Below are positions 13,203-19,803 of a stretch of DNA of 46,851 bases, one piece after another. The stretch is taken from positions 1 to 46,851 of the forward strand of contig PGXB01000029.1 of the NCBI GenBank assembly GCA_002838945.1, read 5' to 3'. Source of the DNA: a candidate division Zixibacteria bacterium HGW-Zixibacteria-1. Its GTDB lineage: Bacteria; Zixibacteria; MSB-5A5; GN15; PGXB01. Positions within the stretch are counted from its first letter, which is position 1. The number at the start of each line of letters is the position of its first letter. Below the pieces are notes generated by a model that was not told the origin of the DNA, did no database searches, and worked only from the letters and a program-made list of their open reading frames with translations. A program made the translations under genes and the position numbers.

Positions 13203-15758
13203 TTATTTCATCAGCACGATTTTGCCGCCCAGATCGGTCCCTTCGACAAACCAGAGATATGTCCCCGAAGCCACCACCCTGCCAGATTCATTGGTGCCGT
13301 CCCAGCTCAGATCCTCCTCGCTCACATTGCTCCACTGCCGGACCGTCGCACCCGATACCGACATCAGCACCACGTTGGCGCCGTCGGGCACTTCGGCAAA
13401 ACGGACCTCTTCGGTCTCGGACAGCTTGAACGGATTGGGGTAGGCATGCGGCGACGGTTGCACCATGAACGCCGATGTCACACAGTAACTGTTGTCGTTG
13501 GCTTTGGCGCGCCAATAGTACGTTCGATCGGCCTGGAGGTCGCCGTCGACCTTCCAGGAAGAGATATCGCCCCCCATTTGAGCGATGGGAGGCGATATTG
13601 CGGCAAGATTCATAAAAAACGAGTCAGCCGCCACCTCGAAATAATAGACATTATCCGTCGTTGCGGAAATGTTGGTGACGGCCAATGTGGGATGTGAAGA
13701 ATGCAGAACCGCATTGGGGGAGGGTCCGACCGGCTCCACATCTTCACCGTCTATGTCAAGAACAATGTCGAAGCCGGCAACACAAGCCACGACATTGGAA
13801 AGGTTCGAGCAATTCAGGCATTCATCGTACGCCTTGATACCGACATAGTACCTCTCGCCCGCATTCAACCCCTCCATCACAACCGCCTGGCCGGAGCCGG
13901 GCGGTTGCGGGATAACGTACTCTTCATAAACAGTCGCCAGATCCCAGTTGGTGCTGTTGATCATTTGCGTCGAATACCTGATCAGGTAAGCGCTGACCAT
14001 GCCGCTATTATTATCATCGCCGGGGGCCGTCCACGACAGCGAGATATTGCCGTTGAGCGGCCCGGTCTCGGCGCTGAGATCCATAATCGGCGCCGGCGGT
14101 GTCAGGTCGGCCGGGGTGGCGCTGACCACATTGGACAGACTCGATGTATTGCCGTCCTCGTCGATCACGCGCAGCGCAAAGTAGTACATCTGAGCCTGGT
14201 TGAGATTGGCGATCGTAAAGCTCTCAGCCGAACCGGCCGCCTGCGGGGTCGGTTCATTGGCCGCTTGCGACGCCTGGCTCCAGTTTTGCGCCGTGATGGC
14301 TGTCAAGGAATAGCGGATATCATAATTCGCGGCGGTCCCGGTGCCGCCGTCATCACCACTGGCGGTCCAGGTAAGCCTGATTTCGCCGTTGTTGGTACCT
14401 GCCTGCGCGCCCAGGTTGGCCACCGGCGCGGGTACGGTCGTGTCGCGCGTCGTGAAACTGCGCGCCGTACTGAAAGCGCTCCAGCCGCAGTCATTGCCGG
14501 CGCGAACCTGCCAGTAGTACGTAACGCCGTCGTCAAGACCGGTTACGATGTAAGTCGTCCCCGACATGGTCTGGTTCGTGAGCGGGCTCGAAAAGTTGGA
14601 GGCATCATCGACCCAAAGATGATAATTGGTCGCCCCGCTGACCGTCGACCAGCTGACGGTGACCGGCATCGTCAAGTTGTCGGCATTGTTGATCGGGCTC
14701 GCCAGAACCGGCACGCCCGGAACGGGACATTCGACACTGAAGTTTCTCACTGTACTCCAGTCGCCCCAGCCGACACTATTATGCGCACGAACGCGCCAGT
14801 AATATGTATCGCCGCCCTGCAGACCGGCCACATTACAATTGGAGGCGGTCATGCTTGAGTCGCAGACCAATGAACCAAATGAGACATTGCTATCCACCTG
14901 CAGTTCATAGAGGTCGGCGCCGGTCACATCCGACCAGTCAGCATAGACCGGCAGGCTCAAGTTGGCGGCGCCGTTGGCCGGACTGACCAGAAGCGGTGCC
15001 GGCGGTGGAGTCGGGATTGCCGAAGTCGTGCCGCTGGCAATATTGGAAATACCCGACCAGTTCGGTACTTCGTCGGCGGTCTTGACGGCAAAATAATAGG
15101 CGGTATTGGGATTAAGACCGGTCACGGTGAAATTTTCCACCGTTCCGGCTGCCTGCGGCGACGGCTCGCCGCTGACCTGAATGGCTCCATCCCAGGCCGC
15201 GACCACGCTTGATGATGTCGCATACCTGATGTCATACTGCGCGGCGGTCCCAATAGTACCGTCATCACCGGGTGCGGTCCAGCGAAGCGCGATGCTTCCG
15301 GTGGTCGGATTGAGCGTGATAAGGTTGGCAATTGCGGCCGGCGGAGTATTTTCCGGCTCGGTCGCCTTGGTGACAACGTTCGATATGGTCGACCAGTTGG
15401 GGACCTCATCGGCGGCTTTGATGGCAAAATAATACGTTGTCCCCGGCGTCAGCCCGGTGACATCAAAAGTTTCCGTTGTACCGGCCGATTGAGGAGTCGG
15501 TTCTCCGGCAACCTGAGTAACACTGTTCCAGTTGGCATCGGTAATAGTACTCAGGGAATAACGGATGTCATACTGTGCGGCGGTCCCATTAGTGCCGTCA
15601 TCACCCGGCGCGGTCCAGTTTAATGTGACCGAATTGGGTGTCGCAGCCGGAGCAGTAAGCGGCTCCTGGGCGGCCATAACGGGTCCGGCAAATCCAAGGC
15701 TTATGCTGAAAATAAACGCGGCCATAATTAGCCGCAATAATCCATTAGATTTGATCAC
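13203..15758 (-). CDS. Secreted multi-FN3 protein with FlgD/type-9-like C-terminal domain
   Basis: Exported, probably cell-surface protein of about 850 residues. After a signal peptide (hydrophobic stretch ending GPVMAA) come at least six fibronectin type III-like domains with recurring SVTLNWTAPGDDGTNGTAA, YDIRYSL and GTTYYFAIKAADE; domains 3 and 4 are of a different subtype (YWRVRAHNSVGWGDWS, YWQVRAGNDCGWSAFS). The last ~85 residues (HAYPNPF, then WDGTNESGRVVASGTYLW) form the FlgD-like Ig fold used as type IX-like sorting or anchoring tail in FCB-group bacteria. The frame opens with ATG at 15773, but AAGGGG lies 6 nt before a GTG at 15758, which I take as start. The FN3 domains make it likely to bind polymers or other surface proteins; no catalytic domain is visible. 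Confidence 0.87.
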   Translation of the reverse strand: MIKSNGLLRLIMAAFIFSISLGFAGPVMAAQEPLTAPAATPNSVTLNWTAPGDDGTNGTAAQYDIRYSLSTITDANWNSVTQVAGEPTPQSAGTTETFDVTGLTPGTTYYFAIKAADEVPNWSTISNVVTKATEPENTPPAAIANLITLNPTTGSIALRWTAPGDDGTIGTAAQYDIRYATSSSVVAAWDGAIQVSGEPSPQAAGTVENFTVTGLNPNTAYYFAVKTADEVPNWSGISNIASGTTSAIPTPPPAPLLVSPANGAANLSLPVYADWSDVTGADLYELQVDSNVSFGSLVCDSSMTASNCNVAGLQGGDTYYWRVRAHNSVGWGDWSTVRNFSVECPVPGVPVLASPINNADNLTMPVTVSWSTVSGATNYHLWVDDASNFSSPLTNQTMSGTTYIVTGLDDGVTYYWQVRAGNDCGWSAFSTARSFTTRDTTVPAPVANLGAQAGTNNGEIRLTWTASGDDGGTGTAANYDIRYSLTAITAQNWSQASQAANEPTPQAAGSAESFTIANLNQAQMYYFALRVIDEDGNTSSLSNVVSATPADLTPPAPIMDLSAETGPLNGNISLSWTAPGDDNNSGMVSAYLIRYSTQMINSTNWDLATVYEEYVIPQPPGSGQAVVMEGLNAGERYYVGIKAYDECLNCSNLSNVVACVAGFDIVLDIDGEDVEPVGPSPNAVLHSSHPTLAVTNISATTDNVYYFEVAADSFFMNLAAISPPIAQMGGDISSWKVDGDLQADRTYYWRAKANDNSYCVTSAFMVQPSPHAYPNPFKLSETEEVRFAEVPDGANVVLMSVSGATVRQWSNVSEEDLSWDGTNESGRVVASGTYLWFVEGTDLGGKIVLMK

Positions 15759-15773
15759 AATTAACCCCTTCAT

Positions 15774-17203: not shown

Positions 17204-17647
17204 ATGACCGTTTTACTGAGAATGAAAAATATTTTGCTTATGAGCCTGCTGGCAGCGGTCATGTCATCGGGCGCAGGTTTGGTAAAGGCGGACACGGTTG
17301 ACGTCAATATTCCCGGTTTGAATTTCAATCCGGCCGCACTGACCATAAATACCGGAACGACCGTACGCTGGACCAACAACCATTCCCTGCCGCATACGAC
17401 CACATCCGATAATGCTGCCTGGGATTCGGGCACGTTGTCAACCGGGCAGTCATTTTCCTATACTTTTGACACGGCCGGCGAATTTCCTTATCATTGCAAT
17501 ATTCACCCTTCCATGACCGCCTCCATTACTGTTAACCAAGGCCGTCCGGTTCCGTCGCTAAGTTCATACGCCTTTATAGCCTTATGGCTGATTATTATTG
17601 TTCTTGCCTGGGGAACTTATCGCCGACGGGCGGCGACATTAGGTTAA
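17204..17647 (+). CDS. Membrane-anchored cupredoxin (plastocyanin/azurin-like) with IPTL-type C-terminus
   Basis: Exported blue-copper protein of 147 residues. Signal peptide to about residue 29 (GLVKA-D), then one cupredoxin domain with type 1 copper ligands His64 (SLPHTTT), Cys98 (YHC), His101 and Met104 (NIHPSM). The C-terminus is tripartite: PSLSSYAF (117-124), a hydrophobic helix (125-138) and a YRRR basic end, resembling the IPTL-CTERM sorting signal. Likely a periplasmic or surface electron carrier held in the membrane. GGAGGA ends 3 nt before the ATG. A GC-rich hairpin at 17683-17708 follows. The protein starting at 19244 has a very similar C-terminus. Confidence 0.88.
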   Translation: MTVLLRMKNILLMSLLAAVMSSGAGLVKADTVDVNIPGLNFNPAALTINTGTTVRWTNNHSLPHTTTSDNAAWDSGTLSTGQSFSYTFDTAGEFPYHCNIHPSMTASITVNQGRPVPSLSSYAFIALWLIIIVLAWGTYRRRAATLG

Positions 17648-17682
17648 GATACTGAAATTTATACAATTAGGAAAAGAACTCC

Positions 17683-17708
17683 CCGCCACGGCCATTATGG
17701 CCCGGCGG
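17683..17708. repeat. GC-rich hairpin after the cupredoxin gene
   Basis: CCGCC (17683-17687) pairs with GGCGG (17704-17708) and inside it GGCC (17690-17693) with GGCC (17699-17702). It may end cupredoxin transcription, although no T-run follows. Confidence 0.45.
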
Positions 17709-17720
17709 ATCAATTCTTCC

Positions 17721-17749
17721 TTGACAAAAGAGTCTTATTTTCTTATCAT
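17721..17749 (+). promoter_or_regulatory. Strong sigma-70-type promoter without an obvious gene
   Basis: TTGACA (17721-17726), exactly 17 nt, TATCAT (17744-17749). Transcription would begin near 17756. The next plus-strand gene starts more than 700 nt away and has its own promoter at 18276. Confidence 0.55.
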
Positions 17750-17867
17750 TTTGTTAACTGGGATCCAGGATTTTCTTTAAATATCTTTTCGAGTTAACGG
17801 CATTTTTTGTTTATAAAGATTTACGATATTCAACGTGAATCTCAGTAAATCCGCCATCCTGCGGATT

Positions 17868-17907
17868 GGAATTGAACCGATGCCGCCGGAATCGAATGTA
17901 AGACCGG
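17868..17907 (-). pseudogene. tRNA-like fragment (tRNA-Val 3'-half-like)
   Basis: On the minus strand CCGGTCTTACA (17907-17897), as in the anticodon arm of tRNA-Val(TAC), is followed by CCGG and then a T-arm-like GGTTCAATTCC (17878-17868). The anticodon loop has about 4 extra bases, the T stem has a mismatch, and there is no D arm or matching 5' acceptor strand. It is not a working tRNA. It could be a relic of an integration site or chance. Confidence 0.3.
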
Positions 17908-18146
17908 TATTTTAATAAATGTCCGGAATATAGATCAGTCTTTCATCGGAAATATTATTGCAGGCGGTTTTACGATTTTCTCGATGATCATAATTATCGA
18001 AAAGGCCTTTCTTAATGGTAAAGACCCGGAAACTGAAGAAAAGCAATTGTGTGAGGTCCTGGATCCTTTTCGTCGGCTCCGGGTTCTTTACCAATAGATT
18101 TCCCCATATTGCGTCAAGACGATAACCTTTCTGCAGATTATAAAAA

Positions 18147-18171
18147 AAGGGCGGGAACCATTCCCGCCCTT
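18147..18171. terminator. Terminator-like hairpin
   Basis: AAGGGCGGGAA (18147-18157) / TTCCCGCCCTT (18161-18171) with loop cca. The T-run is strong on the minus strand (7 T) and weak on the plus strand (TTCTATATAG). Nearly identical to the hairpin at 19775-19803, so the two may be copies of one element. Confidence 0.65.
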
Positions 18172-18275
18172 CTATATAGCTACCCGATTTAATTTTATGA
18201 CGATTTTCAGAGTACAATATTTATCACTATTATATTCAACCGGGAATCATAATTTCTAAATTTTATAATAATAAC

Positions 18276-18304
18276 TTGACAGACTAATCCTCATTTGATA
18301 TTTT
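18276..18304 (+). promoter_or_regulatory. Promoter upstream of the Lnt-like gene
   Basis: TTGACA (18276-18281), 17-nt spacer, TATTTT (18299-18304). It leaves a leader of about 170 nt before the start at 18484. Confidence 0.55.
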
Positions 18305-18483
18305 ATAACCAGGTTCCAGTTTTTCACAGTTAATAGCATTTTCACATCTAGAAGGATGGCCTTATAGCCAAAAAGTCGGCTGTACAAATTTGGCAGGTTG
18401 TCTGACACCAATTGATTACTCCAGCTGCCAAAAGTTGCATCTGAACTCGAAAAAATACTGTAGACCAGATTCACACCACTGTG

Positions 18484-19215
18484 ATGAATAAACAGTCATA
18501 TTTGTCTGCCATGAAGAGTGGAAAAAGATCTGCGGCTTCTATAATTCGAAGATGGGCGGAATCTTATTTATATGCAGGTTCCTCCACTATTCTCTTATGT
18601 CTATCTATTAGTTATCAGGACTGTTGGTACTTTTGTTTTTTTGCCCTGGCTCCTTTCTTATATCGCGTATCAACGACAGATTCCAAAGAAGGAGCGAAAA
18701 CCGGTTTTCTATTTGGCTCGACGCTTTTTATTATGTTTATCAGTGAGCCAATATTGTCGCTCAGCTTCAAGGCTATTGCTCATTTGATTCTCGGTATTGG
18801 ATTACTAACTGGATTCGGATGGCTGGCCGGCAAAATATGGCAGAAGTGGGGAAGAAATGCCGCTTTGCTTGCCTTATTTTGGACTGCTATGGAGTCAGCC
18901 TTGTACTTTTCTGGTGTCAAAGATGGGTTACTTCTGGGGCACAATGTAACATCTCCATTAATAGATAAGTTCATCATTGTTACGGGCATACTTGCCGCCT
19001 CTGCGGTAATCGTAATGATAAATGCAATTCTTGCAATTCTGATAGATAAAATATTCTCGTCGGCAACTGCCCGGCGGTATTATAGCAAAGAAAGTGAAAA
19101 ACACTGGAACCTTTTCTATTTGGCCGGGCGGTTTGCCTTTTGTAGGTATTCCATTAGTGAAAGCCGAGCTCCCCCCTATATTTATTTATGGAGTTGTAAT
19201 GAAATTTTCAAATAA
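18484..19215 (+). CDS. Lnt-like integral membrane protein lacking the nitrilase domain (possible fragment)
   Basis: 243-residue membrane protein with about six hydrophobic helices. The run ISYQDCWYFCFFALAPFLY, then KEGAKTGFLFGSTLFIMF and ALLALFWTAMESAL, follows the N-terminal membrane part of apolipoprotein N-acyltransferase, where a helix with LAPLL, a short loop, GFLFG and a W-x-x-x-E region occur in that order. The catalytic nitrilase domain of Lnt (another ~280 residues) is absent. The last ~35 residues (after SSATARRYY) look unlike a membrane protein and may be out-of-frame sequence; the neighbouring frame is also open there. No clear ribosome site; ATG at 18484 chosen over GTG at 18481. 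It lies between two proteins with IPTL-like C-termini. Could be a true short membrane protein, perhaps a processing partner of those anchors, or a decayed lnt. Confidence 0.5.
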   Translation: MNKQSYLSAMKSGKRSAASIIRRWAESYLYAGSSTILLCLSISYQDCWYFCFFALAPFLYRVSTTDSKEGAKTGFLFGSTLFIMFISEPILSLSFKAIAHLILGIGLLTGFGWLAGKIWQKWGRNAALLALFWTAMESALYFSGVKDGLLLGHNVTSPLIDKFIIVTGILAASAVIVMINAILAILIDKIFSSATARRYYSKESEKHWNLFYLAGRFAFCRYSISESRAPPYIYLWSCNEIFK

Positions 19216-19243
19216 TAATTTAGCTAAGCATACAGGAGTGAAC

Positions 19244-19756
19244 ATGTTAAGATTTTCAAAATACTTTGTCGCTTTGTTGTTTCTGATTTTGCTTGCCGCG
19301 TCCCCGGCTTTCAGCCAGGATAAGGGTGAATCCGTCCAGATAATTGATAATAGCGGCAACCCGGTTTTCAATAAACCCTGGGTGCACCTTGCCATACCAA
19401 CTGGCATGACTGATGACGTGGTATTCGCTAATCAAAATACTTATTCGGTCGAGTTGCTTAATGATAAATGGCCGGCAGGACGCACGCAAAAAACCGCTGG
19501 AGGGGGGGATGTCCTGACGACCACAGCCCCGGGCAATTCAAAACAGTATATTTTTAGTCCTGAAGACAGGGGTCGCTGGATGTTTCTTGTGAAAAAACAA
19601 GGGCAGCCGACATATACGGATACGCTATGGATATATGTCAATGTCCCGGCGCCTGTATCCTCGTTGACACCTTATGGAATTATTGTCCTACTAATCCTGC
19701 TGATTGCGTCGGCGGTATGGATATTGACAAGAAAACGAGTCGCTGCGACAACATAA
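19244..19756 (+). CDS. Exported protein with IPTL-type C-terminal membrane anchor
   Basis: 170 residues from the ATG at 19244, which has AGGAGTG just upstream; the open frame reaches further left (19094) but without support. Signal peptide ends ASPAFS-Q. The middle ~110 residues form an unrecognised beta-rich domain (VQIIDNSGNPVF, YIFSPEDRGRWMFLVKK), loosely cupredoxin-like in style but with no copper ligands. The end is tripartite: SSLTPYG (139-145), a hydrophobic helix (146-162) and a TRKR basic end, closely matching the tail of the cupredoxin at 17204. Probably membrane-anchored on the outer face of the inner membrane or sorted by an unidentified enzyme. Confidence 0.75.
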   Translation: MLRFSKYFVALLFLILLAASPAFSQDKGESVQIIDNSGNPVFNKPWVHLAIPTGMTDDVVFANQNTYSVELLNDKWPAGRTQKTAGGGDVLTTTAPGNSKQYIFSPEDRGRWMFLVKKQGQPTYTDTLWIYVNVPAPVSSLTPYGIIVLLILLIASAVWILTRKRVAATT

Positions 19757-19774: not shown

Positions 19775-19803
19775 AAAAGGGCGGGAATCATTCCCGCCCT
19801 TTT
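19775..19803. terminator. Bidirectional terminator
   Basis: AAAAGGGCGGGAA (19775-19787) / TTCCCGCCCTTTT (19791-19803), flanked by A-run and T-run on both sides, between two converging genes ending at 19756 (plus) and 19825 (minus). Confidence 0.85.

Follow-up and report, generated by a model that had tools for sequence, protein, structure and literature searches.

The sequences RAPP and RGPP are experimentally proven ribosome-arrest motifs, in which, according to the main text of PMC12992588, the arginine is irreplaceable, glycine in place of alanine is permissive or even stronger in ApdA and ApdP, and serine is partially tolerated. The same text describes RAPP-like motifs as avoided in proteomes and as favoring the C termini of small secreted or membrane proteins encoded upstream of diverse genes. 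Leaders that monitor YidC have short, narrow spacers (median 54 for MifM), and spacer distance matters for helices in the N-out/C-in orientation, as set out in the available text of PMC10987492. In the copper-sensing RAPP leader CruR, 45 residues, to within one or two, separate the copper motif from RAPP (PMC9426467, available text). The tripartite layout of C-terminal sorting tails of the IPTL-CTERM kind is taken from PMC3237569. Here, we describe a locus of the candidate division Zixibacteria bacterium HGW-Zixibacteria-1 (contig PGXB01000029.1, analyzed over 46,851 nucleotides and hereafter referred to as the window) in which the gene for a small membrane protein ending in a RAPP motif lies between the genes for a cupredoxin and for an exported protein, here called the 19244 protein after its start position, that has an IPTL-type tail. 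On the basis of sequence and of analogy with known arrest peptides, and with a probability that we put at roughly 0.78, we propose for the middle gene the role of a regulatory upstream open reading frame (ORF) of the RAPP/RGPP arrest-peptide type, which would gate exosortase-H-type cargo in cis.

Insofar as the available texts of PMC12992588, PMC10987492, PMC7897499, and PMC10951233 describe them, ApdA, ApdP, and ApcA share with this gene a C-terminal R-A/G-P-P with a membrane or export signal ahead of it and a position before a gene whose product is exported or related to export. They differ in that their signal is a signal peptide or transmembrane segment, whereas a whole six-helix domain is present here, and in that their outputs are Sec, YidC, and diverse genes rather than exosortase-H-type cargo. 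The CruR/DUF2946 leader has, like the present one, a sensor part, a fixed spacer of about 45 residues, a RAPP motif, and (as proposed here) control of the next gene, but CruR operates with a Rho-dependent step and with a copper CXXC sensor, in place of which a membrane domain is found here (PMC9426467, available text). MifM and SecM, ahead of machinery genes, are likewise examples of arrest linked to insertion or secretion, a link that is proposed here as well, but they control yidC and secA and do not have the RxPP of this family (PMC10987492, available text).

The membrane domain itself is, by Pfam, that of apolipoprotein N-acyltransferase (Lnt), from which the protein differs in having no nitrilase domain and in its added RxPP; acylation is not expected of it. 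With the exosortase H/IPTL-CTERM system (TIGR04177, TIGR04174, NF033207), the locus has in common an exosortase H (XrtH) in the genome and tripartite tails, although most tails tested here fall below the curated cut-offs.

The arrest-leader kind is already known; what appears to be new is a sensor of six helices and an output of the exosortase-H type. In the literature searched, supplements not covered, no paper was found that connects arrest peptides to exosortase, IPTL tails, or Lnt; the words exosortase, apolipoprotein, and CTERM have no occurrences in the main text of PMC12992588, which also lacks the word sorting, or in the available text of PMC10987492. The survey of RAPP/RGPP ORFs of <300 residues in PMC12992588 may nevertheless hold members of this family. 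If the proposal is true, it connects ribosome arrest with the exosortase H pathway in a way that can be tested, adds to the known arrest leaders one with an entire six-helix domain read out at a fixed length, and offers a rule by which to search for other nascent-chain sensors, namely a conserved domain, a fixed spacer, RxPP, and a next gene.

The proposed leader family and its terminal R-x-P-P

The three ORFs on which the initial annotation was built, those of the cupredoxin, the membrane protein, and the 19244 protein, are all present where it had placed them (Table 1). The middle protein, which it had called polytopic, is indeed predicted to have about six helices from its charge pattern and from an AlphaFold2 (AF2) model of low confidence (mean predicted local distance difference test score, pLDDT, 50.6), too weak for a fold search. 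Its sole Pfam domain is LNT_N (40.6 bits versus a cut-off of 27.1), with no carbon-nitrogen hydrolase (CN_hydrolase) domain, the catalytic half of Lnt. LNT_N is detected at E ≤ 0.01 in 19 of 24 family members. Comparison of the family with the genome's own Lnt by hhalign gave a weak match (E 0.0072, probability 5.4), and the family's link to Lnt rests on Pfam; no solved structure matched at E ≤ 0.1.

A first search, covering 60 relatives, turned up homologues at 25 places in 11 genomes, mostly ORFs of ∼220–310 amino acids with, in most cases, a tailed protein behind them. Across 132 genomes of the phylum, the family is present in 36, with 60 matches, none in an open frame longer than 359 amino acids; one 46-codon match (G131:C341:993-1130) was dropped, leaving 59 leader places. 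A search of contigs with the leader alignment returned three loci, all from Candidatus Zixiibacteriota. Among 24 aligned members, Ala55, Pro58, Arg229, Pro231, and Pro232 (window numbering) are invariant and Ser35, Gly75, Trp134, and Gly169 nearly so. For the membrane part, the ratio of nonsynonymous to synonymous substitution rates (dN/dS) is 0.06–0.23 in six close pairs. A short LNT_N-like remnant (22.9 bits), possibly a decayed leader, lies ahead of a tailed cargo gene in another genome (G033:C6, L174:2529-2813).

The window leader ends in SRAPP followed by 12 residues, and R-[AGS]-P-P is found near the C terminus of all of the first 24 members that could be read to the end. Third codon positions vary around the motif, which places the conservation in the protein. 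To avoid circularity, a profile was cut at window residue 200 such that the motif was unseen; it identified 60 distinct ORFs, 56 complete and four cut by a contig or locus end. R-x-P-P is present in 54 of the 56 (24/24 of those used for the profile and 30/32 of the others), at a median of 5 residues ahead of the stop, and the two complete ORFs that do not have it are partial matches only, covering profile positions 13–58 and 10–48. The arginine and both prolines are present in all 54 members, with x being Ala in 28, Gly in 23, Ser in two, and Val in one; the occurrence of Ala, Gly, and Ser matches the published tolerance and is counted in favor of an arrest peptide. R[AG]PP lies within the last 45 residues in 51 of the 54 members, compared with none of 310 other gene proxies (the longest nonoverlapping ORFs of at least 120 amino acids at the same loci).

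The distance between membrane domain and motif is also fixed. The arginine aligns to profile position 220 in 48 of the 54 members, 221 in five, and 219 in one, and the last helix's hydrophobic run stops 41 residues ahead of it and 43 ahead of the predicted P-site proline, to within one residue in 54/54, a short and narrow spacer such as the MifM type has. Residues directly after this helix are rich in Lys and Arg, from which it is probably N-out/C-in. The linker has dN/dS values of 0.33–1.24 in the five computable of the six close pairs, values to be read with the caveat that it has about 31 codons in each and that some pairs have few synonymous changes. As judged from the alignment, linker sequence is free to change while length is kept. 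The window gene thus has a terminal R-A/G-P-P, a membrane signal before the motif, and a same-strand gene just downstream (the leader stops at 19215 and the cargo starts at 19244), as an arrest leader does.

Tails, exosortase H, and gene order

The initial annotation had attributed a shared IPTL-like tail to the proteins on either side of the membrane protein. That is clear for the 19244 protein, the tail of which scores 36.6 bits (E 5.5e-10 for 3500 proteins) against a profile from which both window tails had been left out, a score reached by none of 5000 shuffled tails. Its C terminus comprises a motif, a helix, and a basic cluster, matching the tripartite IPTL-CTERM layout, and on the local profile it is predicted to work like IPTL-CTERM; the curated IPTL models (TIGR04174/PF18203) report no match for this protein. 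The similarity of the cupredoxin is weak. Against the same profile it scores 0.7 bits (E 95), reached by four of 5000 shuffles, and in NCBIfam it gives 17.1 bits to the midcut-by-XrtH model (cut-off 45) and 7.6 to IPTL_CTERM (cut-off 20.5). P-S-L-S-x-Y, a helix, and RRR are present in its tail, the usual Gly is absent, and on this sequence its membership of the tail family is possible but not certain.

A genome-wide collection of tailed proteins, proposed in the initial annotation as a check, yielded four places at E ≤ 1e-5, namely the two window genes and one site each on contigs C8 and C7; the profile contains all four tails, and the E-values are therefore not independent. A fifth, degenerate tail is found on C2 (E 4.4e-5), where the stretch read upstream holds no leader. 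Within this genome, no protein exceeds the cut-off of the curated IPTL models; among cargo proteins of relatives, two of 10 tested exceed that of IPTL_CTERM. A scan of genome contigs with the 19244 cargo as query found no relatives. The cargo of G018:C36 (L100:5684-6811) has an internal IPTL-type segment with further sequence behind it, like the midcut-by-XrtH type.

Two exosortase-fold proteins are encoded in the genome. One, apart from the window, is an XrtH (NCBIfam 93.5 bits versus a cut-off of 86), in which Cys104, Arg145, and His164, presumably the catalytic residues, are invariant in eight aligned sequences. The second scores above the cut-offs for exosortases in general and for exosortase A, and is adjoined by an EpsI-type protein. 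As judged from sequence, the transpeptidase for the tails is likely to be this XrtH encoded elsewhere in the genome. A membrane protein of 170 amino acids with no NCBIfam or Pfam match (L002:972-1484, minus strand) adjoins XrtH and is also found beside XrtH in genome G004 (L027).

The link between the middle gene and tailed proteins, suggested by the initial annotation from a single locus, holds across the family. At 47 of the 59 leader places, a same-strand tail follows within 3 kilobases downstream, compared with five places where one lies upstream on the same strand and one place where it is on the opposite strand; one of the 47 tails is internal to a 375-amino acid ORF (G018:C36). In a second count, restricted to complete ORFs, a tailed ORF is next downstream of 44 of 54 leaders (20/24 and 24/30); 17 of these 44 cargo tails are included in the tail profile used (A4), and 27 are outside it. 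Seven of the 12 places with no downstream tail comprise one that is masked (G005), one in which the contig end cuts inside a visible tail (G086), and five at a contig end (G100, G094:C10, G101, G043, and G031). In the window's own genome, a leader precedes three of the four tailed genes, all but that of the cupredoxin. Genomes can hold several leaders, each adjoining its own cargo, which suggests action in cis. In genome G033, leaders at L113, L138, L139, and L140 stand before giant proteins, three of which end in CRTGAAR.

A census of the 132 genomes detected the leader in 36, tails in 42 (local profile, E ≤ 1e-5), and XrtH in 49 at E ≤ 1e-6, of which 39 are above the cut-off. In terms of co-occurrence across genomes, which the initial annotation had advocated examining, XrtH is present in 34 of the 36 leader genomes (Fisher 1.8e-17, a test that ignores shared ancestry), the other two being listed as 86% and 69% complete, and in 38 of the 42 genomes with tails. 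In G018, G034, G061, G105, G106, and G128, XrtH follows a leader on the same strand within 6 kilobases. To our knowledge, the exosortase H/IPTL-CTERM system is not defined as including a leader ORF.

Proposed mode of action and alternatives

In the scheme that we favor, the ribosome would make the six-helix LNT_N-like domain, which would insert into the membrane during synthesis. On reaching Arg-Ala-Pro-Pro near the end, it would stall with one proline in the P site and the next in the A site, at which point the last helix, 43 residues away, would be just out of the translocon. The domain, as it inserts, folds, or binds a ligand, could then pull on the chain and release the stall, or fail to, and stall or release would set the expression in cis of the next gene, that for the exported protein with its exosortase-H-type tail; in six genomes, XrtH further downstream may also come under the leader's control. 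The stalling itself and the direction of control are what we infer here. The RNA step may be a coupling through Rho, as modelled for CruR, or may proceed otherwise. As to the signal sensed, we suggest more tentatively, and at somewhat worse than even odds, that the whole Lnt-type domain, caught while its last helix enters the bilayer, senses the state of the sorting pathway (a lipid acceptor, XrtH, or cargo backlog) co-translationally, with the stalled, membrane-bound ribosome licensing, or even delivering, the cargo mRNA at the membrane. Were this so, it would constitute a nascent-chain switch for exosortase sorting.

Several observations weigh against an arrest leader that gates this cargo. 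Pairing between the end of the leader and the Shine-Dalgarno sequence is at the level of shuffled sequences (mean accessibility 0.342 versus 0.341 at 43 of 44 loci, one having been skipped for length), accessibility being below shuffled in 24 of the 43, and the junction in the window shows less structure than shuffled versions of it do (z +1.9). Masking the stalled ribosome raises accessibility to 0.46, an increase expected anyway from the removal of partners. A switch in which an mRNA hairpin sequesters the Shine-Dalgarno sequence is consequently unsupported. Some leaders precede proteins with no tail (775–1973 amino acids for four in G033 and 493 amino acids for one in G129), and for 66 of 116 tails no leader lies in the 3 kilobases upstream. 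In 20 regions holding 26 of these 66, together with some other loci, no other convincing RxPP leader was found: the RxPP-ending ORFs outside the family number five, of 42–95 amino acids, three of them on the minus strand of the locus, and are taken as chance. Finally, the 12 residues surrounding the motif give mixed dN/dS values (0.05–1.38), and one member has Val at x, a residue for which the available text of PMC12992588 lists no tolerance other than a weak one in ApdP.

An arrest peptide could also monitor general Sec or YidC insertion, in the manner of MifM, rather than the sorting pathway. A spacer that is short and constant, behind a helix that is probably N-out/C-in, is what such a monitor would have and what YidC-monitoring leaders show, but the genes identified downstream are those of cargo and, at some loci, of XrtH rather than sec or yidC (the next gene is tailed cargo at 47 of the 59 places, although no search was aimed at sec or yidC), and there is no clear reason for cargo to follow insertion failure. 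We consider this explanation unlikely.

Improbable, in our estimation, is that the LNT_N-like protein acts in trans as a handling partner, such as a chaperone, an adaptor, or a lipid presenter for XrtH, with RxPP as its docking tail. Its pairing with cargo genes, its co-occurrence with XrtH, and the purifying selection on its membrane part would all fit such a role, which is close to one that the initial annotation had suggested. However, a docking tail would not require a linker whose length is fixed while its sequence varies, the motif belongs to arrest peptides, and there are several copies per genome, each adjoining its cargo. The terminal RxPP, the constant distance from helix to RxPP, and the multiple copies are all accounted for by an arrest leader acting in cis but not by a partner acting in trans. 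Moreover, most tails have no homologue nearby, and with nine of the 42 tailed genomes having no detected homologue at all and 66 of the 116 tails none in the vicinity, an obligate partner is excluded under the refuting condition that the initial annotation itself had set. A leader might nevertheless double as a partner in a second role.

The other role envisaged in the initial annotation, that of a processing enzyme, would make the protein a new sortase-like membrane enzyme acting on the tails, consistent with its polytopic nature and its linkage to them; it is not borne out, and we reject a sortase or exosortase as highly improbable, given that no Cys or His is invariant in the 24 aligned members and that a separate XrtH accompanies tails in nearly all genomes that have them. 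Equally remote is a decayed fragment of an Lnt gene, for which an LNT_N domain without its nitrilase half might be taken and which is rejected on account of the family's conservation across 36 genomes with no open-frame match above 359 amino acids, its low dN/dS, and the complete Lnt (538 amino acids, LNT_N plus CN_hydrolase) on contig C8.

Local anatomy of the window

The start codon of the 19244 gene, with AGGAG upstream, was picked by script, and the N-terminal limit of the last helix is estimated, the low-confidence model giving a helix at residues 161–199. A 23-base hairpin pattern occurs at only two places in the window, which exactly flank the leader-cargo unit and its promoter-like site, such that the bracketed elements may form one transcription unit. 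Promoter-like consensus sites are not above chance in the region (nine versus a mean of 6.0 in shuffles).

Table 1. Positions of the proposed leader, its proposed cargo, and associated features in the window (aa, amino acids)
Feature	Coordinates	Strand	Size, evidence, and remarks
Cupredoxin with weak IPTL-like tail	17204..17647	+	147 aa; Pfam Copper-bind, E 2.3e-10; no LNT_N-like leader upstream
Near-perfect hairpin ahead of leader unit	18148..18170	.	Terminator-like on the minus strand
Promoter-like site TTGACA-17-TATTTT, TG before -10	18276..18304	+	Consensus match only
LNT_N-like polytopic membrane leader, proposed arrest-peptide upstream ORF	18481..19215	+	244 aa; Pfam LNT_N, family profile, alignment
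Last transmembrane helix of leader, about residues 167-188	18979..19044	+	Hydrophobic run in 54 aligned members
Leader linker, constant length and variable sequence	19045..19164	+	Profile position of Arg; dN/dS
Predicted arrest motif R229-A-P-P232	19165..19176	+	R-x-P-P in 54/54 members
Predicted P-site codon	19171..19173	+	By analogy with PMC12992588 (main text)
Predicted A-site codon	19174..19176	+	By analogy with PMC12992588 (main text)
Exported protein with IPTL-type tail, proposed regulated cargo	19244..19756	+	170 aa; left-out tail profile
IPTL-type C-terminal tail SSLTPYG-helix-TRKR	19658..19753	+	Tail profiles
Near-identical hairpin past cargo gene	19778..19800	.	Putative terminator

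Elsewhere in the window, positions 13203-15773 on the minus strand encode an exported protein of 856 amino acids that has, by eye, FN3-like repeats and a C terminus resembling that of secreted proteins with FlgD-like domains.

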